Part shown: positions 6,397 to 30,538 of the stretch, piece after piece | Layout of the letters: the number at the start of each line of letters is the position of its first letter | Position numbering within the stretch: the stretch's first letter is position 1 | Source of the DNA: Pilatotrama ljubarskyi | Lineage: Eukaryota > Basidiomycota > Agaricomycetes > Polyporales > Polyporaceae | DNA length: 46,944 bases | Direction of reading: 5' to 3' | NCBI GenBank assembly: GCA_022385805.1 | Contig: MU277713.1 | Location: 1-46,944, forward strand | The notes under the pieces: generated by a model | Told to the model about the DNA's origin: nothing | Seen by the model: only the letters and a program-made list of their open reading frames with translations | Database searches by the model: none | Translations under genes and position numbers: made by a program

Positions 6397-6404
6397 CTTT
6401 ATAC
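6397..6404 (-). promoter_or_regulatory. TATA box of the gene at 5806-6310
   Basis: On the minus strand the sequence reads CGCGTATAAAGG, a good TATA match about 88 bp upstream of ATG 6310. Confidence 0.55.
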
Positions 6405-6439
6405 GCGCTGCTTGCTTGTGTACACGTGCTGGGGCTGGA

Positions 6440-6581
6440 GAGCAGCGGCAGTCGGACCGCGGAGTGAGACTCGGACTTTGGTCGAGTTATGAGCTCCCCG
6501 GGGGCAAGCAACTGGAGGGCCGCTAGGGCATTGCGGGTGGCTTGTGCTGCTCTCAGCCTCGGATGCGCGCAAGAAGATTGT

Positions 6582-6621
<40 letters not shown>

Positions 6622-6992
6622 GTACTGACCTTGGGGATGAGCGTGTGGCCTGAGGAGTGTCGCAGGAAAGGAGCGTCGCCTCGCCCGGGGTCCTGACAGG
6701 ACTCCGGACTCCAGAGTCCAGAGCTGTGAGCGTCTGGTGGGACGCGTGCTTATACTTTCACAGTGGCACTATCTACTTTCGACAATCTGCTTCTCCTGGA
6801 TCGACGTCGATAGTCGACTGGTCCACAGTCGATGCGCACATCCACACAGTCCACGGCACGCTCCCCTTGTTCCGACACCTCCGTCAAAGGTCTTCTGAGC
6901 ATGTCGCAAGCACCTTTGCTTGGGCCAGGTGCTGCCGCGCCTCAGCCAGGCTTTCGCTCACCAAGGGTCGTTGTCGTGCGTCCATCGCCTTT
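6440..6992. repeat. Duplicated promoter block, copy 1
   Basis: Aligned base for base with 30539-31129. The lengths (553 and 591) differ by 38, which is exactly the difference in the G run (39 against 77), so there is no other indel, and only a handful of substitutions were seen. It lies between the minus-strand gene at 5806 and the plus-strand RING gene at 7146, so it probably acts as a divergent promoter or 5' region. Short plus-strand frames inside it, for example from ATG 6901, have no homologue that I recognise. Confidence 0.9.
6582..6620. repeat. Poly-G run of 39
   Basis: Thirty-nine uninterrupted G, followed by TGTACTGACC. The homologous site in the second block has 77 G at 30681-30757. 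Confidence 0.9.
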
Positions 6993-7047
6993 CGACGCGA
7001 GAGCGGGTCTCTTGTATATTGGCAATTGATAGTAGTGCCAACGTCCG

Positions 7048-7434
7048 GTAAGCCCCAACAGTCCACTTTCCGTTTCCGTCTTCCCAGGTAGTTCACTCCC
7101 CCGTCGTCGTCCGAACCGGTACGGCCTGCCGCCACTCCCGTCGTGATGCGCCCAAAGTGCCCCATCTGCGACACCTGCTTCTCGCAAGAGCATCTCGATA
7201 GCCGTGCAGTAATGCTGGGAAACTGCCGTGCATTTCTTCCTCGTTCCTGGCACGACACTCCCCCGCTCACATATCCGAACAGGCCATGTCTTTTGCAGCC
7301 TGTGCTTCCGGCGCACGGTGTCGCTGGTCGCATCAGGGACTGCGGATCACGATGGCTGTAGTACTTGCTGCGGTGTGTGGGAGCAGTTATATTTGGTGGG
7401 GCCGCCGCCATGGGGGCCGCGTTGGTACGTCTAG
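7048..7434 (+). CDS. RING-HC finger protein (C3HC4), N-terminal RING; coding from ATG 7146
   Basis: A probable E3 ubiquitin ligase-type zinc finger. Exon 1 (7146-7227) and exon 2 (7283-7434) join through a 55-nt intron (GTGCAT..AACAG) to give a RING that starts four residues from the N-terminus: C-x2-C, 18 residues, C-x-H-x2-C-x2-C (CRHVFCSLC), 17 residues, C-x2-C. All eight zinc ligands are present, and the RING exists only after splicing, which supports the intron. A likely 5' UTR intron lies at 7048-7087 (GTAAGC..TTCCCAG). As modelled the protein is about 77 residues and ends shortly after the last ligand; further exons (possible donor after TGCG near 7367) cannot be excluded. It lies tail-to-tail with another RING gene. 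Confidence 0.65.
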
Positions 7435-7685
7435 GCGTTGTAGTTTCTCGTATACACTGAATTCATTTCGCGCTTCGGAGGTTGTTCTCATTAGGCTTAC
7501 CATGAATGCGAGGATTGCCGCGTTCGCAGCAGCGTGCGGCAGATTCCTACATTCTGCAGCCACTCCAGACCCCATGAGACGTCCTTCGTCACCCGCTCCG
7601 TCGTTGTGCTCTACTCTCCGTCACTCGCCAACTCGCTTGCACTAGTTCTCGTTGACGTTCCTGTCACCTGCAAGTCCGCGCCTAG

Positions 7686-8340
7686 TCAGATGTGACATGC
7701 AGGCGCTCCTGGAAACGATTCCCGGTAAGCGTACAGCGCAATCTGAGTCGCTTTTCACTTACACGGGACTCGGGATCATCACTCTCGCATCGCTTACCAA
7801 GGCTCTCGAGATGTTGTTCAAGGAGTGTCAGGCGCTCCGTGTAATGTTGATTCAACCTCTCGGCTGCTTTGCTTTGCGCGTCGAGTCGCTGTATGTTGCC
7901 CTGATTCCAGATGTGCTGTTCGCGCAAGTATTCCAAGGTCCTCTGCCACACACCGATCGGGTATTCGGTCTCGAGCACCTTCTACTCGGTCGCAGTGGCG
8001 CTGTGTGCAGACGTTAGCCGCGATGGTTAGAGCGCATCCCACCGTACCTTTTCACATTGTCTACCAAACGTTGGTCGGACTCGTCCTCGTGGTACAGCAA
8101 GAACAGCTTTTTGACTCTGTTTTCTTGGTGAAGTGACGACCGGCAGACTTCACAAGATCCGTTTTCTAGCACCGGTCTGCTTTGTACGCAGTCTCGATGG
8201 TATACATGGCCTAACTGGGCGTTAGAATAGGGGTCATATCTGCTGGAGATCTGCCTACCACAGCTCGTGACTACAGCTTCAGACTCCTCCCGTACGTCGC
8301 TGAGGAACGGTGACTTGCATATAAGGCAGAAGTGATGCAT
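7686..8340 (-). CDS. RING-H2 finger plus coiled-coil protein, 144 residues
   Basis: Four exons: 8259-8340, 8065-8210, 7798-7981 and 7686-7708, with all phases matching. The protein starts MHHFCLIC and carries a RING-H2: C-x2-C, 18 residues, C-G-H-x2-H-x2-C (CGHVYHRDC), 11 residues, C-x2-C. The CGH motif is created by the first intron, 48 nt with a CTAAC branch site. A helical region rich in Glu, Gln and Arg follows (residues about 75-135), predicted to form a coiled coil. RING plus coiled coil is the usual layout of small dimeric E3 ligases; the ligase role is inferred. The last exon is tiny and the coil stops abruptly, so the C-terminus may be truncated or continue into the frame near 7500-7600. 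It lies next to and antiparallel to the RING gene at 7146. Confidence 0.7.
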
Positions 8341-8695: not shown

Positions 8696-9959
8696 ATGGC
8701 GTGCCCATATCTTCAAGCTCTCAAGGAGACGAAGCGCGCAATGGTGTCGCTGCTGGAGAGCTACAGTGAGCAACTTGGTCGGTAAGCTCCCCCTGAATGA
8801 GATGCTGGTGATGGATGAACCGACTGACACGACTTTAGTGACCTCGGCGTACACACCGTGAATGATCTTGAGATCTGGAGAGGGTCTTTGTTGTCGACCC
8901 TGAAGGCTGGCTCTACGACTCTGAGTCTCGACATTCTACAAAAGCTTCACGCAGAAGCCGTCTGGGCCCAACACACCGACGTCTCCACCTTGGCCATCGA
9001 TCTCGCTGGAGTCATCTCACGAACGGACCGGCTGCAACATATACAGGACGAGGTATGGTGTGCTGTGCGTGACATGACCATTATCTGACGCTGTCGTCGA
9101 AGATTAGACCACTGTTCGGACGCGTTGGATCCTCACATGACGTAGTGCGTTCAAACTTGAACAATACGTTAGGTTGGTCCGTGGCACTATTGGGGGCACT
9201 CCGCCGAGACGAAGACGTACTAGGAAGGGACTTACACCTAGTCCAGAAGTGCCACTACTATCTCGGACAGACGGAGGTTTGTGCTAGTTCTCGTCGCCAC
9301 GGTGCTTGACGATGAACAATCTTCAGACTCGCGCCGCTCTCGACCTCCTCGTGAAGAACGCTGGCCGCATCTCGGAGCATACGCTTGAGGCTGTCTACAA
9401 GAAGCTTCTGTGCCTGCTGGAGGATCGCGTGGCCGCCTTCTGGATTCTGTGCACTACTTTGGAAGATGCAACGTCGACATGGCATCCAGGCGAAGTGCTC
9501 GAGGAGGAGAGGCGCGATGTCGTCCAGCGGATGCAGCGGATGTATGGACAACTGGTGGAGCAGTCAGAAAGACAATCCTTGCTGATCGACGAAGCGAAGG
9601 TATGCTTTCGAGGATCGCAACTCGTTCTGTGCTGACTGTGCAAAACAGCTTGTTCGTGAGGAAGTCCGTGCCAGGGCTCTTATTGAAGGGAACGGAGCAG
9701 AATTTACCCTAGACGATCTGCTCGCAGCAAGGTCCAGGTACGCCAAGTACCAAGCATCTATTGCAGAGGTTACACGGGTGAGTCGTCGTCTGTAGCTTGC
9801 GTATGATGTGAATAGCTGAGAGAGACCCTGCAGGACCAGCTCGAGGCTGACATCCTCTTCGAGACACAGATGAGTGCCATACGGCTTTTGGTGCAAGTTT
9901 GTGATATGGTGCGAGCGTCGGATGCACTTGCACAGAGTACGAATACTACTAGTGTGTAG
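8696..9959 (+). CDS. Coiled-coil family protein, member 1, 333 residues, six exons
   Basis: Function unknown. Exons: 8696-8781, 8839-9052, 9103-9276, 9327-9599, 9649-9777, 9834-9959; total 1002 nt, every junction in phase. Intron 1 is phase 2 and introns 2-5 are phase 0, a pattern repeated in the members at 21899-23166 and 24952-26144. The product is almost all helix, with coiled-coil stretches; no enzyme motif, signal peptide or membrane segment was seen. Family marks: DLAGVISRTDRLQHIQDE at the end of exon 2, LLIDEAK at the end of exon 4, and LDDLLAARS in exon 5. The ATG is preceded by a possible splice acceptor (CATCCAG), so a further 5' exon is possible. It follows the two RING genes directly. 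Confidence 0.75.
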
Positions 9960-10499
9960 TCACAAGTGTAACTTGCCCAGCTGTCGTCAGAGTATCCATA
10001 CAATAACCTCATCTCCAGGATATGGGCCCCGTCACGCTCAGGCCTTCAGACCTTCAGATGCCGGACGCGGCTTTGCGACACCAACGCGTCTGCAGTACTG
10101 ATACCCGCCTTGATGTCGTTCCGTGCAAGATCGCTCTCAATACCCCAGCCCTGGAGCTCTCTCCCCACGCTAGCATGCATTCCGTAGGCCTCCGTCCCCG
10201 GGCTATTTTCCGTATGCTAAAGCACCTCTGCGTTCCGCAAACCTGGTATTAAGTCGTCCTGTTGTGACGACAGGGGCAGGGCGCCTACGGGGGATAGTTG
10301 CGCTTGACAAGCGCTTCACAAGACTTGTGATATTTTGCAACTGCGGCCTCCGCTCTAATGTTCGGACGAGGTTGCCTGCCATCCTGATTTAGTGATAATC
10401 ACTACTTCACTAATGGGACTGCAGTCGACCGGAGTTAGTGCGCCACGACTGGGGGTTACACCAGAGCGGTCGTCCGGCAGGCTGAGCACTACTAACGGT

Positions 10500-10503
<4 letters not shown>
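9960..10503. other. Intergenic, no supported gene
   Basis: Short frames only; nothing recognised. Confidence 0.4.

Positions 10504-10564
<61 letters not shown>
10504..10564. repeat. GA dinucleotide microsatellite
   Basis: An uninterrupted (AG)n run of about 30 units. Confidence 0.95.
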
Positions 10565-10568
<4 letters not shown>

Positions 10569-12500
10569 GTTTCAGGCGGCGGAGAGGCCGGGCCAGGCGC
10601 CTAGGAATTATAACTCACTCACTCACTCCGCAGTTTCTTCCTCCATAGTCCAATATCACGCTCAGCTCACCGACTCGTCTACGTTCGACCGGTCAGCATA
10701 TCGGAGCCTCGACTAGTAAGTCACTCGTCCCACCCATCTCTCCCTTTTCGCCTGCTCTGGTTTATAATGAACATAGTACGACGATGGAACCGCGCGCAAC
10801 CCGGCACGACACAACAGAACCCAATTCTAGATATCAGTAGCCTAGTGACAGGAGGCCAAAACCGCGGAGCAAACGATCCTCCCACCCAGCGGCAGCGGCT
10901 CGACCTGCACCGCGTCCCCGCCCGGTGAAGCCGGGCCCCAGCCCAGCTTGCGATCTCCTGTCACGCACAGACGTCTACACTCTGAGAACGACGTCCAGCG
11001 AGCAGACGAGGCTAGATGACCGCGACAACCTGAATGCCTTCGCTTCAGCGCTTCAAAATTATCGCGTGCCTCTGTGTGCTCAGTTGCGTAGGGGGTTGTA
11101 CGGTCCCATGGTGGCACGCCACAACTACAGTGTAAGCGGTAGCAGCAGCGTCTGCGCTCCAACTCGGTGAGTAGCTACTTATACACCATTGGTCAGGTGC
11201 AGGAGGTGTTGTCCGACCTAGGCGACGCCATAGCTCAGCATCCGTAAAGCTCTGCGCCGTGACTCCCTCCCATGTGTTTGCCCATCGTCCCAATATCGCG
11301 TCTGTATTGACGTACAATCGGCCCGGCCCAAACCTGATGGAGTAGACTACGAAAGCGTTATAGCCGTTTAATCGGCCACATTCGCTCCTAGCCACCAATC
11401 TGACCATCCCCACGTATTCATATGCGGTCAGCAATGCTGTAGCGATTCGTCCTTGTCTTCCACCTCGTCAGGCGACACTCGATACCGCGGATGTGCTTCG
11501 CTATCAAATCCATCTAGCGCCTGCGGAATTCCGCAAGTATGGGCCAGTCCCCCGCACCTCGGAACACAATCGGTGTTGGCCAATCTGTCAGTCGAAGGAC
11601 GACGTGGTCTCCGCAGTGGCACGGTCCGCGTGACCACTCGCCAAGTCTGGGCTCTGAGGAGTGAGTTGTTGTCCAACGGTACGGAAGCTCACGCTTCCTA
11701 GTAGCTCTCATGCGCTGTTACTCTGTATAGTAGCATTGTACAGCGCCTCTACTGTATTCTGTAAGTACACATGCCATGCATGGGGGAGCTACTGGGATGC
11801 AACTCAACTTCGCATGAATACAGCACTTCCTAACGAATGTTCACACCAAGTCAAACCGTCTCCTAGCCCTAGCAGATTACCTTGCCCACGACTGCTTGCA
11901 TCCCGGAGGCACAGAGTGCAAGTTAGGTGCAGAATGTGGTTGTGTTCGTGCGGAAGTGCGTCTCCAAGGTTCACGTATCATATACTGCGCGCTTACCCCT
12001 GCTGCCCAGTCCCTCCGACGTGCGAGGAAGGGGTCCAGCACAACATTGGGGAACATAAGCTGATTGGCGTCGAGGGAAAACACTTTGTTTACTGAGCACT
12101 TTCCTCCAACTTCTCTCGCCACCGGGCGCCGACCCTTTCGCGACAAACCTTGCGATGCCTCCTCGAGATCAGCGAAGCAGCGAGCACCATCACCGAGCGC
12201 AGGGCACGAAAGCAGAAAGCAGTTGCCCTGCAGACAACACCGTCTGCTGCCGTGTTCCTAAAACCCGGACTGCTCTCCCCGCACCCGCCAGCTTCGCGGA
12301 GCGACTCGTCGGCTTCGTCCGTCCGTCGGCCCCGGACGCTGGCTCGCCCACCCCACCCCGAGATTTACCTCGAGACCCCGTTTGGCAGCGCGTCGCCTCC
12401 AAATCGTCGGCATTGCGGATCTCTTCGATGCCGCACCTATCCTATTTTACTCCGGGTTATACGACTGTTTTGCATTGTACGGACGGCTCGCACATGCCTA
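10565..12500. other. Long gene-poor stretch
   Basis: The best frame is minus strand 11045-11434 (129 residues, start MLTAYEYVGMVRLV), which has no domain that I recognise and could be a chance frame. Other overlapping frames at 11428-12600 give Ser/Arg/Pro-rich shadows. No element ends were found before 12501. Confidence 0.35.
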
Positions 12501-12990
12501 CATCAGTACTTCTGCAAAAGTCTGAGAGGGTCTGACACAGACCTCTCAGACCACTCAGACCGGGTTTCAGACATATTCAGACACATCAGACGGTCAGAGC
12601 TCAGAGGTGGTCGGATGGCCGTTCAGACATGATGAGCTTCTGTGTTTTGCGACTCAAACTTCTTCGTGTGTATCACTGACTCATCCTATGTACCTTCACT
12701 ATGTATTACACAGCTATGTGATGTGTAACTAAACTGCTATCACTTCGTATTGTCCCCAAGTTGACACCTCCTGGATGAGCCTTTCTATGCTATTGGCAGC
12801 ACAATTCTTGTTCTAAAGAGCTTGTAATTAGTCATGAGGTTTGTCCTACATATTTACAACATACTTGACACCAAAAGACCCGATGAAAGGCTCCTGGGAA
12901 GCAGCAGAAGCAGGGCAGACAGGTCTGAAGGGTCTGAGTGAGATAAGCTCAGACGTGCCAGACGCTCAGAGATTTGCAAAAGTACTGATG
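12501..12990. mobile_element. 490-bp non-autonomous inverted-repeat element, copy B
   Basis: Reverse-orientation relative of the element at 1191-1683. It begins CATCAGTACTTCTGC and ends GCAAAAGTACTGATG, with TA on both flanks. The subterminal regions again repeat GTCTGA/TCAGAC. The internal sequence matches copy A along its length with scattered substitutions. Confidence 0.8.
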
Positions 12991-13950
12991 TATGCCCCAA
13001 GCCCTGCGCAGAAAATGCAGGAAGCACCCGACGACGCGGCTCTACAGCGGCGCCTTCGACCACCGCTCGCAGCCGGTGATAGCTTCTTCGTTCTCGTAGG
13101 TGTTTGTGATACAAGTAACCAATATCACCTCAGTGCAACCCCCGCGAGTCTGTCTTCGTCCTGGCTCTCATGCCAGAGTCCGCTGCAGCCCTCCCTGAGC
13201 CTCAACGTCCTGGGGGCAGCTGCCACAATGGTCGGACCATGCTGCCCTGGACCTTGTCCTCCACCCTCTACCTCCGCTGCTTCGCCTTACATGCCGCTTC
13301 CCCTTCCTTCCGCCCGGGAGGCCGACTTACATTCATCCACGAGAAGCAGCACAGGCGTGGTGCCGGCATGGTCCGGTCCCCAGTGTAGGCCAGCACCCGC
13401 GCGCTGCAAGGGGAAGAGCCGCGCGTGAGGAAGTTCAGACGCAGCGAGGAAGACCTGCAGTGGCACTTCGGCGGCCCAGATAGGACCGAGTGTGCGCAGA
13501 CCATGGCCAATCGGTCTGTGATGGGGCAAAGGAGCTGTTCATCCGGGGGAGAGAGCACCGGACGCGTTGGACGCAAAGAGCGTGGGCGGTGAGGGGCAGT
13601 GCGTGCTGTTGTTATAGCGCTGTTGCATGCCAATCTTCGCCTGCCCCTACACCCGCACGGGCCACACCGACTGCATGTCCGGCCTGCATGTACCTCATTC
13701 GGTCTGCACACCACTGGGCCCCGCGCAACGCTCTTATGGCTGTTCCTGTCCCCGGGGCCATCTCTTGCTGGTGTTCAATGCCCTCCTCTGTGCGCGGCCC
13801 GCGGGCCTGACGTCCTGCATGTATAGGAGGTCAACACCCTCACATAACAAGCCGTGGACAGCCGAGTGTGCGCTTGCCCTTGAGGTAGCTACTACACGCC
13901 CATCCCTCGCGCCCTTAACGCAGCTCCTAGTACCCGCAGCTGGCCCCCCA
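12991..13950. other. Degenerate coding-like sequence upstream of the RT relic
   Basis: Several overlapping Pro/Ser-rich plus-strand frames with no consistent reading. Probably the decayed 5' part of the retroelement that follows, but no endonuclease motif was identified. Confidence 0.3.
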
Positions 13951-13959
13951 AACCTGCGC

Positions 13960-16193
13960 AGCCGCTCGTTCAGGATCCCGCACCCCCCTCAACCTACCGG
14001 GAAGTCGCTACAGCTCTCTATCGGGCAGCCGAACCGTCCATCCGTGGAGACCACGCCGCTGAACTCGAAGAGCTGCGAAGGGCTGGCCTAGGGTCAGGCT
14101 ATGAGTTGGTATCGCTTCTGGGCTCTCGCCGCAACTTGGACTCTCTCATATATCCGCCCACTGACGATTTTCCCCCTGACGGACATCTGACGGCTCATGA
14201 GGTCGAAACCTCGCGCCGCCAAGATATCACGCTCGTTTCGAAGAGGTTCTTCAAACACTGAGTGAACCCAGTGAACCCACCCGCTGAGCGCATTTCAACC
14301 CGCTCGCGCACGTGGTCAACCGCGTCCCGTGTCCTCGCAAGCCTCCTAGTTCTACCTCCCGCCAATATAGATACCACAGCTAGCCAACACTTCTCGCGGC
14401 CCTTCTCTATCGAATGGATTGATGCTGTCAAGGACCGTATTCTACGTGATTGCAGGGGTGCTGTTCGCCATCTCGACGGGGTGGGATATGACGATATCCT
14501 AATAATCCCGTCGCAACAGGTCGCGGATCTATTCCAGTCCTGTCTCTCTGCAGGTGAGGCTCCCTCATCCTGGGGTCACGGCAATCCTGGCAACGAAGAA
14601 GGACGTCAGTGACCTGGAGGCCATGTAGAGTCTTCTGCCTAAGTCAATCACCCATCTCATTGACCGCCGGCTGCGCGAGTGGGTTGCCACGACCGGATGT
14701 CCACCTGATTCGCAAAGCGGCTCCCGCCCCGACCATAGCGACAACTATGCTTTTGTCCTCCCCAATGCAATCAAGACGGCCCGTGCTCCTGGACGCACTC
14801 TCTATGTCCTTCATGGACCTCCCGTCGATCGGCCCATGCCGACGTGACGCCGTGGACGAAGCTCGCATGCTGGAATACCTCGGACCGCTCCGCAACTGGC
14901 CGCGCATGCTCCATGGGCACTTCGATTATGTGGTATGCCACAATGGCGAACTCATGCAGACTATCTGCGCCCTCGCAGGCATCCTCATTGGCGATCCCGG
15001 ATCCCGATATTATGGGACATCTTCTCCGACTTCGACCTGCTCCGACATTCCGGTGAGTTTTGCATCGACGATGTCCACATCTTTCGGCTCGTACTTGCGT
15101 ACGATATGGTGTTCATCTGCCTCTCTGCGGAGGGCATGTGGCATACGCTGGCGCAGATGGAAGCGTACCGTGGCGCCTCCTTCCTTTGCATCAGCATTCC
15201 TATCACCCTGGCGGCGGCCTCCGGCCCTCTCCCTGACTCTCACACATGCGGTGCCCCTCTGCTCTGGGTTTTGCTGAGGCCACATTACCCTCTGCACCGC
15301 TGGCTATCTCTACGCTCCACTGCGAGTGAAAGAGCATGCTGCACCGCAAAACTCCGTACTCCCTAGAGTCCTACGTAGTAGCGATATGATTCGCCCTCGC
15401 ATGCACACTGTACAGCGCGCGTATTGACCCCCCGTGAAAGCCGGCTGTGAAGGAGCACCCATGCCCTCAAGCGCGTCCAGCTCACCTACCTGTGATGCGC
15501 TCCCCGCCTCGGCCTGCACTCACGACTAGCGCCACTCTTCAGCATACTGTCTCCGTTTCCTCTCATACCTGATTTGCGAGAACCCCGCCCTCTCTCTCGC
15601 TACCCTGCGCAGTGTGCACGCGTACCAGCACGCTGCAGCCCACCACCCGAGCTGCCGGGGGGTATACACCTCGCACTGCTCGGTCTCGCCCAGCTTCGAC
15701 CTTGTCACCTCGTTACTCGCAGACCTGACTGCTCCACTCGCGTACCGCGTTCTGCCTGCGTCAGTGCCCCTGGCCCTCATGCACGCGCGCCTCCACCACT
15801 CTGGTATAGACCACTGGATGAAGTCTGTGCTGCCCGGCCATGCCTCTCCCTCCCCTATCGCCGCCACCGTGAAGCTTTGACACGTCTTCCACATCAGAGC
15901 TTTCCTCGCGATGGAGGTCCTCCGCCATATGTGGCGGGCCCTCCCGCGGCATCAGCGCATCTGCCGCTTTACTCCCTTGCTCGATGGTGGAGGAAGAGGT
16001 TCATGTCCTCCTAGAATGCGATGCTCTGGAGCATCCTGCGCTGTGCAAACAGTTCTTCGCCTCCGCGCAACTCCTCATGCCGCCCCGTGACGCGCAAACT
16101 GCTCGCTCTCTTGCTGAGATACCTCACGCCTGCGTAGACTTTCCGCCCCTCTCTGTCCCGTCGAATGTTGCGCTCCAGGCCCTCCCGCGGTGA
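13960..16193 (+). pseudogene. Broken non-LTR-type reverse transcriptase
   Basis: Read across several frames, the sequence follows the order of a basidiomycete RT. An N-terminal helical part at about 13960-14270 is followed by FSIEWIDAVKDRI and HLDGVGYDDILII (about 14400-14520), then DRRLREWVATTG and NAIKTARAPGRTLYVL (about 14660-14810), GILIGDPGS (about 14980), and LAYDMVFICLSAEG (about 15095). A final segment EEEVHVLLECDA (about 15985) resembles the C-terminal Cys/His region of this group. Frameshifts and stops separate the pieces. The catalytic A-D-D of the palm appears as A-Y-D, so even a repaired frame would lack a catalytic aspartate. The assignment comes from recalled family motifs. Confidence 0.7.
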
Positions 16194-16199
16194 CGAGCG

Positions 16200-16821
16200 A
16201 ACTCGCATAGGATATGCCTCAATTGATGTGTCTGCTAGGCAAAGGTACACGATATCAGGTCCACTTGTCGGCAATGTCGGAGAAGTGACACCTGGCGTGT
16301 CTCTGTAGTAGTTCCGGCACGAGTACTGTGCCGCCGCATGAGTATTTTCCTCGTTTGTGTCTCGGTGGGATGTTTTGTACTCTAGCAGCTCATGAGTTAC
16401 GAGGGAGATTCACGACGATGGCTCGAGTCCCCCTTCTCCTCTTCCTCCTCACGGGCTCGCTCCCACCCTTATCCCGCCCTTCTCTGCCTCCGCACCCTCG
16501 TGTTCGCTGCCTGCCGTCGCTCTTCGCGCGCCCCAACTCCAATTGTATCACTGCATACCATCAGCTCTTCTAGCTCTCCCCCTCTGTTCCTCTCCTAGAA
16601 CTATGATGTCCCTCAGGTAATCTCGAACCGAGAACGTACTCATTCCGGTGGCCGCGATCGACTGATATATGAGGTGTCCTCGGTCGGGCAACCGCCCTTG
16701 ACGGTATGTATGAGAGGTCGATAGGCTTGTGCGCATACACAGCAAAGGACTGCACCATTGCGCCACGCACTACACCATTCGGACGAATGAAATGAGTCTA
16801 TGTCGATAGCAAAACAAGAGA
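16200..16821. other. Intergenic, no supported gene
   Basis: Short Ser/Pro-rich frames only. The 3' end of the minus-strand gene at 16822 borders it. Confidence 0.4.
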
Positions 16822-18250
16822 CTAGGCAGACATGGAGCATGTCAAGGAATCGTAAATATCACGAGACAGCTCATCCAGCACAGCCTCCAGCTGAACGTGT
16901 TGCTACCGACGACGATCATGAGTTACCGTATCAGGAGGACTATAGAGTTCTACACACCTGAAGCATGGCAGTGAACGCCTCATGGATCTCACGGGCGACT
17001 ATAGGAATCTCCGTGAAACATGTGGTGTCAAATACGCCAATAGGCGTATTGATGACAAGAGGGATGTGTTCGGCACAGATCACCAAATCCTTCTCACTAA
17101 ATGAGCGAGCTCGGCTGAACAGAGAGGATCGCTTACCCGATAGGCTCCGAAAATGCGATTCTGCTCCTCGATGTTGTGCAGCATATCTTGGTAGAGGGTC
17201 CTGCACTGTGCGAGTATGTTGCTATGATTCTGCGGAGGAACGCCATTGAGGTGGCGGTTCCAGGTCAACAAAGCGACCACCATGTTCGCGGCCACTCCAT
17301 CCTTGATCAGTTCACTGTCACGCATGGCATGACGAACAAGAACGGTCAGCTCTTTCACCACCCTGAGTCTTGCCTCACGTAAGACCGTCGAGGTGACACT
17401 ATCGAACATCTCGCGAAGTCGTTCCTAAGGAATGGAGGCCTCGTCATATGATTCCCTGAAAGAACCAAGTTCACTCACCTCTGGAGAAAGGATGATCTCG
17501 AGCATTGGCCTCATGTCCGCAAGCCGCCAACGAACTATATGCTCCTCTCCGGTGCACAGAGCTATAGTGCAACGAGCCCCGTCCAGTCGGGTCCGTAAGT
17601 GCTCCCGGTCGACCTCCAGAAGCTGGCAGTTCTGCGTTTCCCACAATTCAGCAACCTGCGGTACTTGAATCAGACTGTAGGTCAGGGATATCAGCTCGGA
17701 TACTCACCATAAGGAGTTTGCGGTGCAAGCCAGCACCTGAGCGCTTGATAGCATTGAAGGCGTCGTCGAGTGTCTCCCTCAGTCTGGAGGCTCTTGCCTT
17801 AGCAGCGGCCTGGTGGAGTTTCCACTTGGTGACCCGCGCATACTGTATGTGACTGTCCCTAGCGACCCACTGCAACCGGGGTATCCAGAGGCCGGGATTG
17901 TCAGTTCGCAGGCCGTAAAGCTGCTTGAATCTGCGAATATCGAAGCCTAGTGGGTATTACGGGTGATCGTAGGGATTCAGATGCACCCACCGGTTACGCC
18001 CATGGTCCATTTGCCCGCACAAAGCGAAGATGGCAGCGTGTAGTCCCTCCACTTCACGAAGTTGTGCGGCGAGGTCGTCATTGTCCGCCTGCGCTGTCAG
18101 CATGGCGGGTACCGCAGCGTCATCTGAGGTTCGCCGGACCACATCGATTAAGTCTGCCTCGTTCGCTACAGGAGCGTGGCCAACAGACTGATCGCACTCC
18201 GCGGTGACCTGGTTAGCCTCGCACCATGTGGGCGGAACGTGGGTCGACAT
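16822..18250 (-). CDS. Coiled-coil family protein, member 2, 386 residues, six exons
   Basis: Function unknown. Exons: 17998-18250, 17708-17946, 17479-17655, 17137-17424, 16958-17092, 16822-16890; total 1161 nt with all phases consistent. Exons 3, 4 and 5 (59, 96 and 45 codons) match in size the corresponding exons of members 1 and 4 (58/91/43 and 59/93/45), and introns 2-5 are phase 0. Intron 1 is phase 1 instead of phase 2, and the N-terminal exon is longer (84 codons, acidic, with ALLTAQAD-like helices), so the 5' end was remodelled. The protein is mostly helical with no catalytic motif. It is the most diverged complete member by eye. Confidence 0.75.
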
Positions 18251-19051
18251 TGCGTCTAGTCGAGAAGGTGATGCAGCACTTCCGCACGATTGTGCGAGGA
18301 TGTTAGTAGTAATGCAGTCCGACGTAGACTGATACTCGCTTGTCTTATAGGTATCGCGAAACTATACACTTTTCTTGAATTCCAAACAAGCATCTTTGCA
18401 GCCTTTGTCAACTTTCGTTGTACGCGCGAAACAAAGACAAAGGTGTTTCATGGCGTACCTGAGGTCTTTCTGAAGTGATGAACACTAGGTCCGCAGAAGT
18501 TTGATGGATTGTAAGCGTTGAGGCGCTCAAGACAAGACAGTCGCATTAGTAGTAGGCGATGCGGAAGTTCAGGTTGTACAACGTCGATTCTCATCTACAA
18601 AGGAGAGCGCCGGGGTTTATGCATATGCGCGGTGACTGCTGACATCGCAATTTCGAAATCAGACTACGACGGCCCCGGGCTCCATCAGAAGAAAGAGGGG
18701 TTTGTGCATGAATCAATCACCGATTGTGCATCGCAGACAGGCGGAATTGGGATCAGACGCGGGATGTGCTACGGGCGTGTCGCTCCGTTCCATCTCAGCA
18801 GTCCCGAGAGGATGATTTCAAGCTACGTGCAACCGCACCAGAACGGACAGGAAATAAGTCCATATAGCCTCCCTAGATGTCCCTCGAAAGTTAGCCTGGG
18901 TGGGGCGCTATCCCGCACAACCAGAGAGAGTGCGACTGCTCAATTCAGACATCGGCCAAGCGGAGCGTTCGCCACGCAGATGCACGACATCGGAGTCTTC
19001 TGAGCAATGTGAGAGTGCAACTGCACATTGCTATACCGATGTGCATGGCCA
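18251..19051. other. Intergenic, no supported gene
   Basis: A 161-residue plus-strand frame at 18518-19003 has mixed, low-complexity composition and no recognisable motif, so it was not accepted as a gene. Confidence 0.35.
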
Positions 19052-19270
19052 CTAAGCAATAGATGGCTGGGAACAGAAGAGGGGGGGGGGTTCAGCACTG
19101 CAATCCAGCATACGCCGTATGATCTCCATCGAGCGCGCAAGGACAGACTCGAGCTGGACAACCTCGAGCGACGGACAGTCATAGGAACCCGAGGACTGCT
19201 CGTGAAGGCCGAAGCGTGCACGCCTGAGGAGGATTCTTCTACTTGCTTCCTCAATTAACAAATCGGCGGC
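19052..19270 (-). pseudogene. Tail fragment of a coiled-coil family gene
   Basis: The minus-strand frame reads ADLLIEEASRRILL, then SLEVVQLESVLARSM, then a stop. This matches the exon 4/5 junction of the family (LLIDEAK then LDDLLAARSRYAKY in member 1). No upstream exons in frame were found, and the 3' part ends in a short tail that includes a run of 10 C (10 G at 19081-19090 on the plus strand). It is read as a truncated relic. Confidence 0.55.
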
Positions 19271-21034
19271 AATGACCGTGCGTTGTGACGACCTCGTTGC
19301 GTGATAACATCATGGTTCGAACGCGCGCGGGAGGATGATGAAGCTGCTCACCGTGCGCATGCCTACCCGCCGACGGAATATGGGCGCGAGTGAGTTCACG
19401 CATCCCTCACGCTGATTCCCAGTAAGCACGGAATGGCTACAAGTTTGCCCACCAACATGCCATGCGATACTGAGCTCCTGTCCCCCTGACGACGCCTAAA
19501 CGCGAACGATGCAAGCCTGTTGTGCTCCATGCAAGAGAACAAGGTACGAATGTGACGCTTTGAGGAGCTAAGAGCGTCGCAGCAGAAGGCTCAACGCCGT
19601 GCGAACAGTCACTGGATACACTCACAGCGCGAACGGCTAGAGACCCCGTAGTCATATAGCACCCTCGGTACTCGCAGGGTGGTAGCAAACGCTGATAATG
19701 GTCGGCCGTGTCAACGAAGAGCAACCGGCACATAGCCGATCGACAGATAGCGAGACTATTCAGTCGCCGGGCGTTCAAGAGAAGCGCTCCATGAAGAGGG
19801 GTAGAGCGCGACTCGGGCAGCTTGGCGGACGGAAGACGGCTGCAACATTTCGACGAGATATAATCGCTGCATGTTAATAGTCGTCGTCTGCGGACTGAAG
19901 AGCAACTGAAGCCTGGACGGATCGAGATTGACCCAATTGCTATCAATCTGCTAGACAAAGGCAAGTCATGGATGACAACGACATACCGATCGTTCCGTCG
20001 CAACGGTGTAAGCCTCGACTTCTGCACTCCGGACGGGTCGACGAGCGATGAGACGGCTGAAGGTGCGGGCTTACAGACCATTTACAGTGCTACAAGGCTC
20101 AGCAGGGCGATGCACAAACAGTAAAAGGAAGGCGGTCTACGGTGACAGGCAGAGGGACTAACGGCGGAGCATGAAGCACAGGCAGCACCAAGAGTTCTGT
20201 AGTCAGGGGTGAAGGATTCTGGCCTTAGCACGAGGCATGAGTCATGCAGGACGATGCCTGCGAGCGCAGGGATGAGTGTGCGCTCGACGGGTGATGACCA
20301 GGAGGCCTAGGAGCGTAGCGAAGAGGATGCCAACCAGTTGCGGAATGATAGACCGCGCGGGCCCGCGAGCGGGCATGTCTGTTTTGGCCACCTACCCAAA
20401 GCGGTAGGTTACTGTAACAGTCCCGATCCCAAAGGGAAGGTTGTTAGAATGCACACGAGAGAAGACAGGTTATACTGTAAGTCTGCGTCTCTGCTTTTGT
20501 GAACGCTGAAGACTCCCTACAAGATACAGGCTCTTCTATACCTACGATGATGTTCCTTGCGTAGGTGAAGATGAGCCAGGTACAGGTACAGAGCCGGAGG
20601 AAAGAGAACCAGAGACCTCGGAGTCTGGAAGAATGGACAAACGGAATAGGTAAGTCACGAAGGGTTACGCGTTACGCTCAGGCGTGCCTGCTACAGTCCC
20701 GGCGCCTATGTAGTGGCTCGTGCGTCCAAGCCTGCCCGAGCGAGTCGAAGGTGTCATATATGGCACTTGTGCAAACTGCCCCATTCGTACCAGCTAGCCC
20801 AGTATGCGTAGTGTAATCATAATGGTTTACTCTGCAGTACGGGACAACTCACTGGGCCGGTTTCCCGGTAAGTCTGCCAGCTGCGGACGGAGAACGGCCC
20901 ACAGTTCGAGCGCTTTTCCCAGTCACCGCGAATTCCTTCGCCGTTGGATTAGCAGACATGGTCCCCATGAACTCTATCCTTCTCGGCGCGCAGGGTGACG
21001 AGGGCAGCTCCCAAAGACATGTAAACGATCACGT
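19271..21034. other. Degenerate region without a supported gene
   Basis: A 214-residue minus-strand frame (19437-20081) is open but Ser/Leu/Arg-rich, with no domain that I recognise. At 20440-20465 a purine tract (AAAGGGAAGG) precedes TTGTTAGAATGC, which resembles a polypurine tract followed by an LTR start, but no second LTR or integrase/RNase H motif was found. It could be a decayed retroelement. Confidence 0.3.
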
Positions 21035-21443
21035 TGATAGGTATCCAGATTCTCAGGTCTGAGAGTGAATAGTGTGGCGAGAAGTTGTCTAGGAAAGCGC
21101 GGAGGATAGAGTAGTAGTGCAATAGGCAATAGGACCTATCAAGACCAGAAACCACGCGGAGTGCGAGAAATTGAGCGAGCCTGAAGCCAGCCACGACGTA
21201 GGATACGAGAGGCGCTAGTACGAGCGCGAGACGGGAGACGGGAGACGGTACTCGAGACGACGAGGGTGAGTCTGCGGGACAGACGCGGGCAGACTGTCTT
21301 TCGAGGCGGTCAAGTACAGGGCTATATACACGAGACCTGGGCTTAGAGAGCCGGACGCAAATGAGAGGCAGAACAAGAGAGCGGCGGGCGTCGTGGTGTC
21401 AAAATGCGGCGGCATGCTGTGCGCGACGCGCGAGTAGGCGGTC
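21035..21443 (-). mobile_element. Diverged third LTR-like copy
   Basis: On the minus strand the end reads CTATCAACGT after a stretch (21035-21120) that matches the 3' end of the LTR copies at 1927 and 32699 (TCGCCACACTATTCACTCTCAGACC-type sequence, then the shared ATCTATCA-like end). Further in, a GCGTCCGGCTCTCTAAGCCC block and pyrimidine-rich tracts follow in the same order as in those copies. The 5' boundary is uncertain; TGACCGCC at 21443 is a candidate start. Confidence 0.5.
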
Positions 21444-21898
21444 ACGTGGCTAAGTACTACCGTCGCGCGACTTTCTAAGGTGTTGTATCCGCTCGCGGTC
21501 AGTCAGCGCCACGCGCGCGAGGCCACACGATGGTGCCGCCTAGTACGAGCAGGCCGATTAGCTTTTAGAAAAGTCTATGCTAAGGTGCCGTACATAATCG
21601 CTTAGGAAACACGGTCGGAGCCCGCGCCCTGCAAGACCGACGCATATGCGCCGTACCCGCTCAGCGACGCGGACTCCCCGTGAGCGTCACGAGGCTCACG
21701 CTCTCATGCACTGTTGACTTTCCAAACTTCACTTTCGTGGCAGCAAGAGCCTCGAGCAGCCAAAGATTGAACTCGACTCTCAAACATCACATTGATGCAT
21801 ATACATTCCTAGATAATCGATGACGTGAATCTATCTAGCGTACCACCTGTGTAGCCACCCCCTACGCCCAGCACCGCTCCATTCGGGTACACAGCGGA
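21444..21898. other. Intergenic, no supported gene
   Basis: GC-rich to 21720, then mixed. No gene or element boundary was seen. Confidence 0.4.
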
Positions 21899-23166
21899 CT
21901 ACTCGCTGAGCCTGACGGGAGTTAGAAACTCGAAGAGTTCTGCCATTGGTCTCACTCTCCCGAGGGCACTATCGAAACCTTCCTCGAATTCACGCTGACA
22001 CTGCAACTGCGGCATTAGAACAGAACGGACACCGACGGCTGAATCTTACGCACCTCGTGCAGCTCTAGTACGCGACATTGAAGCCGAGTATGCATCTCCT
22101 TGGCCTGCATCAGATCTTCTATGGAGATACAACCTTCCTCCCCGTCAGGAAGGAAATGGGGAGCCTCCCTGGCTTGGTCCTGAAAGTTCTGTAGGACGTG
22201 GTTGAGCCGAGCTGAGGTGACGTTCCGAATGACATACCTTCACTTCCGTGATCAGAGTTGCTTGGAGTGATTGCTGCCCTAAGAGGTTGTTTCGCAACAT
22301 CTGCATCGACAATAGAGTGCCGAGCTGTACCTGAGGAGTGATCGAGCCCGAGGCCCACTCGGTGGATGCGGCATCAACCGCAGAAGAGATAACTTGGCAT
22401 GCGTGAATGTGTTCCTCGCTCATCAGAGCCAGTCTATCGCAGATCGCGTCGAAAACCTGACGCCTGACGAAGTCCATATCCACGTTCAGAAAAGCGATGG
22501 CACGCTCAAACTGATCCTAGGATTGTCATCAGAGGGAGGTAGTCACCGAGAATTTGGCCGTACCTTGGGTTGTGCCAAGTACCCAATGTACATCTTCAGA
22601 TTGCTGAAGACGGTGCAGAGCAGCTCCTTTCGCTCGTCGTTATCCGCCAGAATGCTGCGTAGATTGTCGAGTTCCGCAGTGAAGGAGGCCTGGCTCTCCT
22701 GTCCCATGTATGGTTGGATGCAGCCATAGTAAGCGATAATCTACGCACATTCTGTGAGGCACTCCCTGGACAAGTAGGCTGATTATGTACCTCATCTCTC
22801 TTCTGAGCGAGTCGACCGGATCGCGACGTGATATGCGCGAGGTCCTCACTTATAATAGAGGTATCCGTTAGTCGTGCCCAAGAGGCCAGGGCGCGCAACC
22901 GCTGTATGGTGTTGCCTCGACGCTTCATGTTCTCCGTCATCAGTTCAGCTAGCAGAGCTTCCTTCCACTCGTGCAAGTTTGGGCCATCTTGTGCGCCAAG
23001 GTCGCTAGTCTCGCGCCATGAGCCTCTATCATGAACCCAGCCGCAGGCTGCTAAGTCACCTTTTGACCTGCAGGTCGAGCATCATAACCAGCGACAGTAT
23101 ATCCTCCTTCACAGCGGAGAGCTGTTCGAACGGCGTGCGATGAAGGGTAGAGTTCTGCTGAGACAT
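21899..23166 (-). CDS. Coiled-coil family protein, member 4, 346 residues, six exons
   Basis: Function unknown. Exons: 23060-23166, 22791-23025, 22564-22740, 22238-22516, 22054-22188, 21899-22006; total 1041 nt. Intron 1 is phase 2 and introns 2-5 are phase 0, as in member 1. It aligns with member 1 across all six exons: DLAHITSRSGRLAQKRDE at the end of exon 2, a 59-codon exon 3, TLITEVK at the end of exon 4, and ISIEDLMQAKEM in exon 5. The start MSQQNSTLHRTPFEQL is short and polar, and the rest is helical. There are no catalytic or membrane motifs. It ends at TAG 21899-21901. Confidence 0.8.
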
Positions 23167-23249
23167 CGTGAGGTCGGCGAAGGTAGGAAGAGACGGATGA
23201 GGTGGTGGAGTCTCAATAGTGACGGTACTGGCCTGCACAGAGCATCCGG

Positions 23250-23960
23250 CGATTTTATGACTTCGTCCGGTAGCAATGCGCTTTACCAAACTCAAGCGCA
23301 TAACAAAAATGGATAGTACTAGCATGCGCCTTGTATGGAAAATGGCCGTTGTAGTTTCAATGACCGTCCACCAGATCGACGCCTCTATCCTGATTCACCT
23401 GGTCAAACAAGGCTTTATCTCTGATGGATTGTCCAGCCTGATCGGCGATGCTCACCACTAGGCGGAGGCCGCGAGCGATGTTCACAAAGCACGCATACTC
23501 CCTTTGTCTTGCCAGCGTGATTGCAAGTCCAATGTCCGAACACGATTTGGCATTCACCTATTAGGCTGCGTGTTTTGCTCCTCTCAGAGTGGTGCGATTA
23601 AGGAGGGTCGATATGAAAACGGAGAAGAACCCACGACGATGAGTTGGCAGCACATGGGCGCGTGAAAGAGGCTGTGGCGAGCGGTCACAAGCCTGCCCGC
23701 ACACCCAGAGGTTGGGGGTGGAATGGATGTCGTGCGCGAAGTCGAACGGTGGCCGTTATGGCCCTGCGCTGCGGCAGTGAATCGCTCTACCGCACTCAGT
23801 AGGCACCAGCGACTGTGATCGTCCAGGGACAGGGACAGCAAGTGTTCGAACCGTATCATGAAGTCCCGTCGGGCCTCTTCCTGTCCTTGTGCGGGGAAAT
23901 TCGATATCTGAGTACTCAAAATCAATAGGAGAACCGAGGGAGCACGCCACAGACCTGCAA
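23250..23960 (-). pseudogene. Helical-coding fragments, possible gene relic
   Basis: The minus strand holds helical segments typical of the cluster: EEARRDFMIRFEHLLSLSL (about 23870) and REYACFVNIARGLRLVVSIA (about 23480). The second is followed by a plausible donor after LFDQ and a short terminal exon. They could not be joined into one phase-consistent gene. It may be a decayed family member or an unrelated small gene. Confidence 0.35.
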
Positions 23961-24951
23961 TGCTAGGCTTTCAAGCAGAGAAGTCTACGGTCGACAAGAC
24001 CACGCAGTACGCGGTCTCTATGATGTTTGAATCGCGGGAGGCCAACGCGTAAAGCAAAGTTTAGCAGCAGCTATGAGTGGAGGTGTCCACGGACTTCAGG
24101 CTAACGGAACGGCCAGTGGAAAGAGTTGAGGCTACCACTTGCTCCGCCCGCACATAGGTCTCATACCTCGCGCCCTCCAACTCTACCCACAAAGCATGCA
24201 GATAGTGAAAATAGGGAGATGGGGCTGGGGATAAGGCTTTCATAAGAAGGGAAGAGCAGATACTCTTGAGCAATGACCTAGGCATCTTCCCCGGAAGCGT
24301 CAAGGTGCGTAGCGACTGGCTAGCACTACGAGCATTTGCTACCGTTGGCGAGCGACTCCTCAGTCGACGTCCGTTCGAAACAGATTGTGCATTGATACAT
24401 AACAGAGAACGCGCAGAGGTGGAGGTACGTGGTACGGGAGATTTGACTTAGTCAAGCTAAGTCAGCTCAACGGCCTGGGCCGAGCTCGGGGCGACATCCA
24501 GAGAGACTGGGATAGCTAGGCGCTCGCTGTTCGATGTCGAGGGCGGGCGTTAATCAACGTGAGAGCTCCGCTTCCACGGTACTGGCTACGGTCGCTGTGC
24601 CACATGTTAGTAAATGATCATCCATACGGTGCTATACTTGGAGCTTCAAGTATGCAGCTTACAGCTGGAAGAGTGACGGTTTGCCGCCACCGCAAGCCTA
24701 TGTCGCAGACGGGGCGGATAATCGACACACCCATGAGTTACCTGCGTCGATCGAGTACGGACTGTACGGCCGTATACGCATGGGGTCACATTTCCATTAC
24801 GAACTGAACGCAAACTCTAAGCACTATGATTCGAAATACAAGCTCCGCGTGAGTACGTCTGGAATCGCCCAGCGGGCTACTACAAGCTGGTACGAAGTGT
24901 TCTAGGACTCAAGTAACACATTGCCGAGGTAGCGAACTGCGAACTACACCG
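23961..24951. other. Mostly non-coding, fragmentary frames
   Basis: A minus-strand exon-like frame at 24061-24303 contains ALWVELEGARYETYV, and a plus-strand frame lies at 24266-24451. Neither could be extended into a gene. Confidence 0.3.
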
Positions 24952-26144
24952 CTAGGCTCCAGAATCTTGCAGACCTTCCAGAGTCTTGTCTGCTTCAGCC
25001 AACATCTGGAGCGAGCCATGAGTATACGTAACGGCGACGCCTTCGATCGAGGCTACTCACCCGCCCCATAAGCCCCAGACTGTCCGTGATTTCCGCGTAA
25101 TACTCCGCCGCCTTGAGGATCTCATCAACCGAGAAACCTCGTCGGCCTCGCTGGCCGAGCAGCACACGAGGTTGCGTTTCGGCCTGTATGATGAGGCCCT
25201 TGAGTCCCTGGTCACTACACTTCCATCTCCGTAGACTCAAGTGACAGCTCACCTCGAGATCAGCCAGAATCTCATCCTGCTTCCACTTGTGCACCTGCGA
25301 TTGACATTGCAATCGGTACATCTCCGCGGTGGTACGTACACATGTATGGGTGCCTGTAGACGATTCCGCCTGATTGTACAGATCGTGTGCTTTGGTCACC
25401 ATGCGTTCACGTCTCTCCTGGAGTACTCGGAGCTGTTCCATAAGTGGAAAGAGCGTTCGCCTATGCGTACGTGCAGGGGCGACCTCCTTCAGAGGATGCA
25501 GTACGCTCTCAAAGCAGTACTAGATATTCGCGCGAGATTGTCAATAGGTGTTCCTCAGCAGGGTGCACCCACCTACCTCTGACATAACCAGCCGCACAAT
25601 GCCCCGCAGGCTATCATATCTCGTCAGAATACGGTGTTCGTGACGACGAATATCAGAGAGGAGGGAATTTGCATGATCGACTCGTCGCATGATGTCCTTC
25701 CTGCCAGAAGCAACTGAAGCCTGTCATCATGGACGTCAGAGCCACCTGAAGGGCAGGAATGCATCGCCGCATACCGAAGGCTTCTTCGCCTCGAGATCAT
25801 GCGCCGCTTGAGCTCTGTCCTGCAGAGTCTCTCTTACAGGCTCACGAGACTCCCCATTGCGAATCCTTGAAGCCGCTAGGCGGACTTCCCGCAATTTCTC
25901 CGTCCTGTAGGTCGCATTTGTTTGCTTCAGGAGCTGTATAAAGTCATCTCGCCAAGTAGACGGGTGGTTCATTACTCCACGCTCCTGGAAATATCTGAGA
26001 GGGAGGTCAGGAGGAAAGCAGTATCGCAAGAGCCCTCACGTACCTGAATATGACCTTCTCTGCTTCTTGATGCGTATGACAGATCTGATCCCGCAAAAGC
26101 ATGAGCAACGCAAGAGCCTCCAAGCGGTCGGTTTGGAGAGTCAT
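24952..26144 (-). CDS. Coiled-coil family protein, member 5, 310 residues, six exons
   Basis: Function unknown. Exons: 26044-26144, 25775-25994, 25577-25720, 25253-25519, 25061-25207, 24952-25005; total 933 nt with intron 1 phase 2 and introns 2-5 phase 0, the same arrangement as members 1 and 4. Exon 5 carries SVDEILKAAEYYAEI, equivalent to LDDLLAARSRYAKY of member 1. Exon 3 is shorter (48 codons against 58-59) and exon 6 is only 18 codons, so the C-terminus is clipped relative to relatives. An upstream exon ending at this ATG is possible: an acceptor (TTTCAG) lies at about 26229 and the frame is open across VQRTFGYEVHKKVAESL. Confidence 0.75.
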
Positions 26145-27416
26145 CTTGGAAGAGGAAGGGGCTGCCGACTGGTGGTCGAGCGACTCCGCCACCTTCTTAT
26201 GCACTTCATAACCGAACGTTCTTTGAACCTGAAAGACGCAATTGTCAATTGAAACTCGATAAGCCATTGAATTTACATATCTACTCGTAGATTGAGGTTC
26301 TATGGCTTTGGTACTCGCCTGCGAAAAGCAATTGGTCTCTCCTGGGAGCATGTGTGACTTGCCTTCGTAACTGGCATGGCTTCTTGCATCGCCAATCTTG
26401 GGAGCATGACGAGCAGACAAGACCGGGTGACCGTGGACCACACCCGAGATGGAATTGAGAGACCGCGAGAGCACTGCCTGTTCTTAAGACAAGAGAAGAT
26501 GACGCATACTTCGAGATCGCGGTTACGGTCGTGGCACGCGGATCCGGACATCCCCGGAGGCGCATTGGAGGCGCTGCGAGTAGCCGCTGGCGTTTCCCGA
26601 CCTCCTTGCTGCCTCCTTGTTCTCCTCACGACGGGCACCCAGGGATTGCACACCGTCCAAAATTGGTCGAAAAGTCGAGACAATAGCGCTACCACTGACA
26701 CTCCAGACTTCACCGGGCTTGTGTTCCTTTGCCTCTCAGGCCTATGAAGGACGTTGCGACTTTAGTACCCGTGACACTCCAGGTGACATTGGACGCCCGA
26801 AGCGTTCAAAGATCTCCAAAGACGTTGCCGCTCCGTGACGTTCACTTGCGTATCGTCTTTATGTCTCGAGTATGGTCGCAGCTACATATGGGCTGTCTCG
26901 CGCCTGTCGCCTTGTTCTACATCTCAATCCTCATCGCCCACTTGATATCTGCTTCTGATGCCCCCGCTTACCTATAGCCAACGTGAGTCATGCCATCGAC
27001 CACCCACGCCCTTTGGCTCATTGGACTTAGGTGTACGAAGAGTTCTACAAACCCTCGTTCATAATGGCACGATCACAGCCAGTCTAGACCAACTCGTGAA
27101 TGGAGGTACGCCTGCTTACGACCTCATGCTAGCCGGTATCCATGCTCAGCCACACCCTCTGTACAGTCATTGCTGACAAGCGTGCTTCGGCGGAGCCCGT
27201 AGCCACAAACCATCGTTTTTTCATCTGGAGAGTCCTGCGGAGCGAGGTCTGTTCCTTTTCTGTGCTTTACCGTAAGTGTACGACGCGTGTTGCGCAGGCG
27301 CAGGCCGAACACATCGAACTTCGGGGAGATCGCGCGGAAGCTACCGTCTCCGTGACTGCGATAGGGACGGAATAGTAAGTGACCGCTCCCTCTATTCCGG
27401 TCATGCACTTATTCAG
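26145..27416. other. Poorly resolved region upstream of a family tail
   Basis: Probably holds the decayed or unresolved 5' exons of the gene whose tail is at 27417-27907. Frames such as AQAEHIELRGDRAEATVSV (about 27297) look coding but could not be joined in phase. No other element was recognised. Confidence 0.35.
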
Positions 27417-27907
27417 GCCGACGTCAGCTATAAACAGCCTCAAGGACCAACTCCAGCCAACGCGAACCCCCTGGCACATGAGGCTTTGCCACTCGGGCGC
27501 AACGCCGTTCAGCAGAGCGAGAGGAACAAGGTGTGTCTTCATCGTCTCTCGATGGCCTCGGCTCTAAGACTCTTCCGATGCAGGAGCGTGCAGAGTATAT
27601 GCGGCTCGCCGGCATCATCGAGCACACCATCAAAGCATTCGAGGGTCACGAGCCTCCCGCATTGTTGCTCGACCCAAAGAATCTGCCCCAACTGGTACGT
27701 GCATGAGTGCCTGTGATTCTCCATTCTTCCGACGGCTGTCTTCAGATCCGCGACAATATCGAGACCATCTCGCATCTTGAGGCCCAGGTGAGTTTGCCAT
27801 CTCCCCTCTCTCCGAGGTGCGCCCTGTCTCACTCCTCCTGCTAGAACCAGGAGGCCATCGAGAACATCCAATGGGTAGCTGACCACATAGACTACTTGCT
27901 TGGATAA
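27417..27907 (+). CDS. Coiled-coil family protein, member 6, C-terminal exons only
   Basis: Exons 27417-27530, 27584-27694, 27746-27787 and 27845-27907 join in phase 0 and end at TAA. The exon order and features fit the family tail: QQSERNK at the end of the first, RLAGIIEHTIKAFEG in the second, then NIETISHLEAQ, and a final helix WVADHIDYLLG. An extra intron splits the unit corresponding to exon 5. Upstream exons were not resolved, so the gene may be partial or damaged. Confidence 0.55.
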
Positions 27908-30515: not shown

Positions 30516-30538
30516 TCCAGACTCCGGGTAGGACTAAG

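Follow-up and report, generated by a model that had tools for sequence, protein, structure and literature searches.

The window analysed here comprises bases 1-46,944 of contig C44 (259,829 bases) from the 33.1 Mb genome, in 173 contigs, of the polypore Pilatotrama ljubarskyi (Polyporales, Polyporaceae). It carries four genes, A, B, C and D, which encode predicted helical proteins of 310 to 382 residues and belong, together with relatives outside the window, to one unnamed family. Gene A is flanked by a divergently transcribed gene whose product combines a RING-H2 domain and a predicted coiled coil. The original prediction, made from the letters of the window, had described a clustered, multi-exon, coiled-coil gene family with conserved intron phases. 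We describe below the structure and the genomic extent of this family, the RING-H2 gene associated with one of its branches, and the likeness of its proteins to the V domain of ALIX and Bro1.

Gene structure in the window

The four genes were modelled by hand from the reading frames and the splice sites (Table 1). Each of them (four of four) has six exons, no internal stop codon and intron phases 2,0,0,0,0. The introns measure 45 to 67 nucleotides across the four genes and 45 to 57 nucleotides in A, B and C, and those of gene A are all of the GT-AG type in the hand model. The six exons, the phases and the near-equal exon sizes attributed at the outset to A, B and C are therefore borne out. Gene D had been credited with a remodelled 5' end; in fact its six exons and their phases match those of the other three genes, in the hand model as in the published protein P0001, so that the exon pattern is cleaner than first described. 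P0001 departs from the hand model only by a slightly earlier start of exon 6. In the case of gene A, the published protein P0002 has most junctions in common with the hand model, with a later start of exon 3 and a different end. A third public protein of the species, P0003, corresponds to a relative on contig C147 (29,792 bases). Exon 3 is exactly 177 nucleotides long in eight of the ten modelled family genes, the exceptions being A (174) and C (144), and A, B, C, D and the relatives F61a and F147 are open through all six exons.

Table 1. Family members and the RING-H2/coiled-coil neighbour. A, B, C, D and the RING gene lie in the window, G lies elsewhere on C44 and the other genes lie on other contigs; nt, nucleotides; aa, amino acids.
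Gene	Position	Strand	Exons	Exon lengths (nt)	Protein (aa)	Intron phases	Leave-one-out score (bits)	Basis and remarks
A	8696..9959	+	8696-8781, 8839-9052, 9103-9276, 9327-9599, 9649-9777, 9834-9959	86/214/174/273/129/126	333	2,0,0,0,0	62.3	hand model; published P0002
D	16822..18250	-	18250-17991, 17930-17708, 17655-17479, 17424-17137, 17089-16958, 16890-16822	260/223/177/288/132/69	382	2,0,0,0,0	39.4	hand model; published P0001
B	21899..23166	-	23166-23060, 23004-22791, 22740-22564, 22516-22238, 22188-22054, 22006-21899	107/214/177/279/135/108	339	2,0,0,0,0	97.4	hand model
C	24952..26144	-	26144-26044, 25994-25775, 25720-25577, 25519-25253, 25207-25061, 25005-24952	101/220/144/267/147/54	310	2,0,0,0,0	65.4	hand model
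G	C44:67824-68935							profile scan; 75 bits (best shuffle 6.3); incomplete at 3' end
F61a	C61:187350-188656	+						genome search rounds
F61b	C61:174920-173625	-						genome search rounds
F147	C147:26444-25152	-						genome search rounds; published P0003
F1a	C1, from about 796.6 kb	-						genome search rounds; model incomplete at 3' end
F1b	C1, from about 799.9 kb	-						genome search rounds; model incomplete at 3' end
F18	C18:488467-489057	+						54-63% identical to F1b; known from that match alone
RING-H2/coiled-coil gene	7685..8340	-	RING starting at 8340 and split by a short intron; coil in open frame 7981-7685					partial model; putative second intron

Evidence for a single family

That A-D and their relatives form one real family is virtually certain. 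When each of nine members is scored against a profile built from the others, the values range from 39 to 155 bits (A 62, B 97, C 65, D 39), while the best of 500 shuffles of each reaches 8.8 bits; the proteins are thus well beyond the resemblance of random helical proteins, with which the original prediction had asked for them to be compared. Reversal of the sequences, which keeps their helical periodicity, gives at most 4.8 bits over the nine members and at most 0.5 bits for A-D. A profile made from the five relatives outside the window recovers A, B, C and D at 21.8, 91.8, 57.2 and 29.8 bits, respectively, against best shuffles of 5.7, 5.1, 6.8 and 10.0. In the opposite direction, the A-D profile gives 65 bits for F61a, 71 for F61b, 28 for F147, 27 for F1a and 9 for F1b, with best shuffles of 6.8, 10.8, 14.6, 5.0 and 5.3, so that F1b is barely above noise in this test.

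At the level of single sequences the resemblance is slight. A and B retrieve each other in a whole-genome search (E values of 9.7e-6 and 1.5e-5), and the closest pairs share 22-34% identity by BLAST. In five of five pairs, identity is 45-59% at codon position 2 and 29-38% at position 3, a bias which is as expected for coding sequence under selection. The hydrophobic moments of ten members, with z values of 1.4 to 4.6 at 100 degrees, 1.7 to 5.5 at the heptad angle and -1.8 to 1.0 at the strand angle, show a helical periodicity, a coiled coil and a helical bundle not being separated by this test. Two further members had been proposed in the window and both fail against the ten-member profile: a tail at 27417..27907 (+) obtains 1.1 bits (best of 500 shuffles 5.9) and a relic at 19052..19270 (-) obtains no score.

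Extent of the family in the genome and beyond

The profile scan covered 246,736 bases, namely C44:1-186944, the whole of C147 and 30 kb of C61. Within them 13,747 bases read N, the N stretches being C44:46945-49549, 59569-60803 and 155810-156499 and C147:1-9217. Outside these bases the genome was searched with single sequences only, and the number of loci is therefore a lower bound. These searches confirm a real, unnamed polypore family and raise its size from the four window genes to 11 loci or more, spread over five contigs (C44, C61, C147, C1 and C18). The first description of the genes as clustered was right as far as it went, and it is completed by a fifth member on C44 and by six loci on the other four contigs. 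The matches of C on C147 and C61 were weak (E values of 0.19 and 0.71), and the reading of these regions gave the same six exons. In G, introns 3 and 4 require GC donors, the gene plan being otherwise standard, which would represent either non-canonical splicing or beginning decay; in F61b, the usual junction of intron 1 does not keep the frame.

In the tree of ten members, support is 100/98 for F61a/F61b, 93/93 for A/B, 83/87 for the group of A, B, F61a and F61b, 86/90 for F1a/F1b, and 99/99 for F147 with F1a/F1b; full support is reached by only two of the seven inner branches, and long branches lead to D, G, C and A. Local duplication is real, yet the family is older than the cluster. The first proposal, of an old family that diverges fast while its gene structure persists longer than its sequence, is supported; its local expansion is only part of the picture, the local pairs A/B, F61a/F61b and F1a/F1b being present in a family dispersed over five contigs.

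Searches of 5.8 billion proteins with alignment A1, P0002 and F147 as queries retrieved P0001, P0002 and P0003 only, all from Pilatotrama ljubarskyi. This search requires shared words of five residues, and for two of the three queries it scored only the best ~8,000 candidates by word sharing; because of the word requirement, the result is to be read as fast divergence and not as absence from other organisms. No match for gene A was obtained in phage records, and no paper on this helical family figures among the literature matches listed. The family illustrates how a conserved exon plan can expose homology where a pairwise sequence search almost fails.

The divergent RING-H2/coiled-coil gene

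The RING gene of the window is divergent from gene A, with 355 bases between the two start codons. Its product carries a C-C-C-H-H-C-C-C RING and, after it, the predicted coil. Once the intron inside the RING is removed, the window protein and its two homologues on C61 (three of three) pass the Pfam cut-offs of zf-RING_2 and of other RING families, and none of the three has a B-box among its Pfam matches, the coil having been joined across the putative intron. Searching the genome gave three strong RING loci; a fourth match, on C21, is weak (E 0.026). All three strong loci are divergent from a family member, A in the window, F61a at about 1.0 kb and F61b at about 1.3 kb, so that three of the 11 family loci are paired. 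The neighbour resembles RING-type E3 ligases with a coiled coil in the order of its RING and its predicted coil; it differs from them by its fast evolution and by its three strong copies, each divergently placed beside a family member, and its ligase activity is putative. A likeness to TRAIP is also conceivable.

Does this proximity reflect a common function? Several observations tell against it. In the stretches scanned, some of which read N, the profile scan revealed no RING gene near B, C, D, G or F147, and the pairing is therefore not general. Furthermore, one of the C61 copies, RING1 (C61:185717-186382, -), has a stop codon within its coil-coding stretch, where the window gene and the other C61 copy, RING2, are open. 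The RING gene could thus be a passenger duplicated along with the helical gene and functionally untied to it, a reading to which we give close to an even chance: the three paired loci all belong to the branch of A, B, F61a and F61b, so that one ancestral linkage explains all three pairings, and B of the same branch lacks a RING gene in the stretch scanned. Against the passenger reading, the divergent arrangement has been kept in three of three cases despite the divergence of the helical partners to 22-34% identity, and, the weak C21 match aside, every strong RING copy found by the genome search has a helical neighbour. To a functional partnership between the helical protein and the RING protein we would give somewhat less than an even chance. 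The distribution of the RING genes fits an ancestral helical/RING pair in the A/B/F61 branch, followed by a loss beside B.

Gene A and its RING neighbour are enclosed by an inverted repeat (1276-1684 / 12500-12908), whose 409-nucleotide arms are 72% complementary and 10.8 kb apart.

Likeness to the ALIX/Bro1 V domain

The consensus of the ten members matches the Pfam family of the ALIX/Bro1 V domain, PF13949 (model length 295, curated cut-off 30.8 bits), with an E value of 7.3e-13 and 48.9 bits, residues 96-310 being aligned with model positions 35-267. The consensus of F147, F1a and F1b is likewise above the cut-off (E 3.9e-8, 33.4 bits), and that of the seven other members (A, B, C, D, G, F61a and F61b) lies just below it (E 5.4e-7, 29.6 bits). 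Four of the ten members match PF13949 individually, in a roughly common register: F1b at 4.8e-6 (26.5 bits), F147 at 8.5e-4, G at 0.009 and F1a at 0.022. Among 20 controls, consisting of ten reversed members, three reversed consensuses and seven column-shuffled consensuses, none matches PF13949. In the PDB, the three best matches of the ten-member consensus are the ALIX entries 2oex, 4jjy and 2ojq (E 0.026-0.035), its residues 163-319 falling on 166-331 of 2oex, and the F147/F1 consensus finds HD-PTP 5lm1 (E 0.0042, residues 152-290 on 156-297). These PDB matches are weak, concern the C-terminal half with near-equal numbering, and would not be significant alone. The alignment profiles also gave PDB matches at E values of 0.05-1 (a membrane protein, PEX14, SPC24, Mce and others), which were taken as helical noise.

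The claim that no named family fits these proteins holds for single members, none of the ten passing any Pfam cut-off, and gives way at the level of the ten-member consensus. From these comparisons, the family probably descends from the V domain of proteins of the ALIX/Bro1/Rim20 type, through a remote link. It shares with the V domains of ALIX, Bro1, Rim20(PalA) and HD-PTP a helical nature and a similar length, the modelled proteins being only as long as a V domain. It differs from them in standing alone and in its many diverged copies, where the same genome has two canonical V-domain loci. In Bro1 proteins, according to the sections of PMC4276913 available to us, the Bro1 domain precedes the V domain, and the V domains of Bro1 and ALIX have been reported to bind ubiquitin. 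The accessible part of PMC5145805 describes a conserved FYX2L motif that binds YPXnL-type ligands (Alix F676, Bro1 F687, Rim20 F623, HD-PTP F678); an excerpt of PMC9410543 provides further background on V domains. The Pfam scans of the ten members read gave no Bro1-domain match, and the FYX2L motif is absent from all ten sequences, seven of which include the whole C-terminal end in which it is expected. The family is therefore not a Bro1 protein and, judging from its sequences, probably not a YPXL receptor.

The absence of this motif is one of several results that weigh against a V-domain origin. None of the ten members passes the PF13949 cut-off singly and six show no match to it; the consensuses of A-D, of A-D with G, and of A, B, F61a and F61b give none either. 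Single members also match unrelated helical families at E values near 0.001 (F61a with ATG17_like, F61b with CtIP_N), which places the weaker single-member PF13949 matches near noise, and the best noise match among the controls, Sec10_N with a reversed consensus, attains 2.7e-4. In the PDB, ALIX is missing from the matches of the nine-row alignment profile A4 at E <=1, and single members match no V domain. The structure models are helical and too poor to use, with a pLDDT (predicted local distance difference test) of 42 for a three-row alignment and 40 for P0001 alone; Foldseek obtained nothing from them at E <0.001 and no ALIX among the 50 matches listed. Finally, when the genome was searched with PF13949, with only four candidates scored, the two canonical loci (C55 and C42) were the sole matches and no member of the helical family appeared.

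These results would be accounted for if the family, although real, resembled the ALIX V domain in the way any long antiparallel helical bundle does, and were an unrelated, lineage-specific helical scaffold or tether. We regard this as unlikely. The ten-member consensus has an E value some eight orders of magnitude lower than the control noise, which never includes PF13949; the four single matches lie in roughly one register; and two different V-domain proteins head the PDB lists with near-equal numbering. A third explanation, in which over-read models describe copies that are decaying or untranscribed within a repeat-rich region, is very improbable: the near-identical repeats that adjoin the cluster, the GC donors of G, the off-frame intron 1 of F61b and the stop codon of RING1 speak for it, but six members are open across all six exons, the codon-position bias is found in five pairs, and A, D and F147 have published models.

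A model for the helical family and its RING partner

The loci constitute one family, with one six-exon plan and with selection acting on the coding sequence; at three of the 11, a RING-H2/coiled-coil gene stands head-to-head with the family member. The model which we consider rather probable as a whole is that of a birth-and-death family of stand-alone helical adaptors derived from the V domain, with a RING ligase as the partner of one branch. The helical protein would act as an adaptor or a receptor whose helical arms would hold ubiquitin or a changing cytosolic partner; the rapid divergence of the sequences within a fixed frame suggests such a changing partner. In the RING-paired branch, both genes would be expressed from the shared promoter region and the RING protein would ubiquitinate the target held by its helical partner, the ubiquitinated target then going to the ESCRT (endosomal sorting complexes required for transport) pathway or to the proteasome.

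In the TRIM (RBCC) proteins, a B-box lies between the RING and the coiled coil in one polypeptide, which also has a helical, fast-evolving recognition part. The present pair resembles them in outline, combining a RING and a helical, fast-evolving recognition part; in contrast, the RING-coil and the helical protein are here the products of separate, divergently transcribed genes and no B-box was matched. Could the ALIX/Bro1 V domain have become, in polypores, a recognition protein that stands free and diversifies rapidly, and could one branch of it form with its RING ligase, under a shared divergent promoter, a split TRIM-like system of ubiquitin tagging? The variable helical half would then be under conflict, in self/non-self recognition or against mycoviruses or mobile elements. 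This extended version of the model is speculative and, in our opinion, improbable. The analysis provides an unnamed and seemingly orphan fungal family with an origin that can be tested and with a possible biochemical partner. Were V domains indeed freed from the Bro1 domain and expanded beside a RING-ligase gene, this would mean that fungi assembled a recognition system from ESCRT parts.

Repeats and other features of the window

A repeat located at 5411-7462, 30479-31147 and 46749-46944 of the window has copies on C44 at ~70.8-72.4 kb and 75.7-76.5 kb, which for long stretches show complete or almost complete identity to it, and partial copies also within the window. It includes an open frame, 5809-6333 (-), without a Pfam match, which has a 53% identical relative over 123 amino acids at C61:181833-182201, between F61a and F61b. 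This repeat beside the cluster looks like a recently mobile or duplicated segment.

No Rfam match reaches its gathering score anywhere in the window, and no telomere-like repeat is seen in the first 1,200 bases of the contig, near whose start a short CAATCTT tandem array lies at 1031-1076. An (AG)n run of ~60 bases occupies 10504-10564, downstream of gene A. Finally, an open frame of 287 codons at 41661-42521 (+) encodes a very acidic Asp/Glu/Gly tract; it matches the Pfam family BKRF4 under the cut-off (E 0.0014), probably by virtue of its composition.

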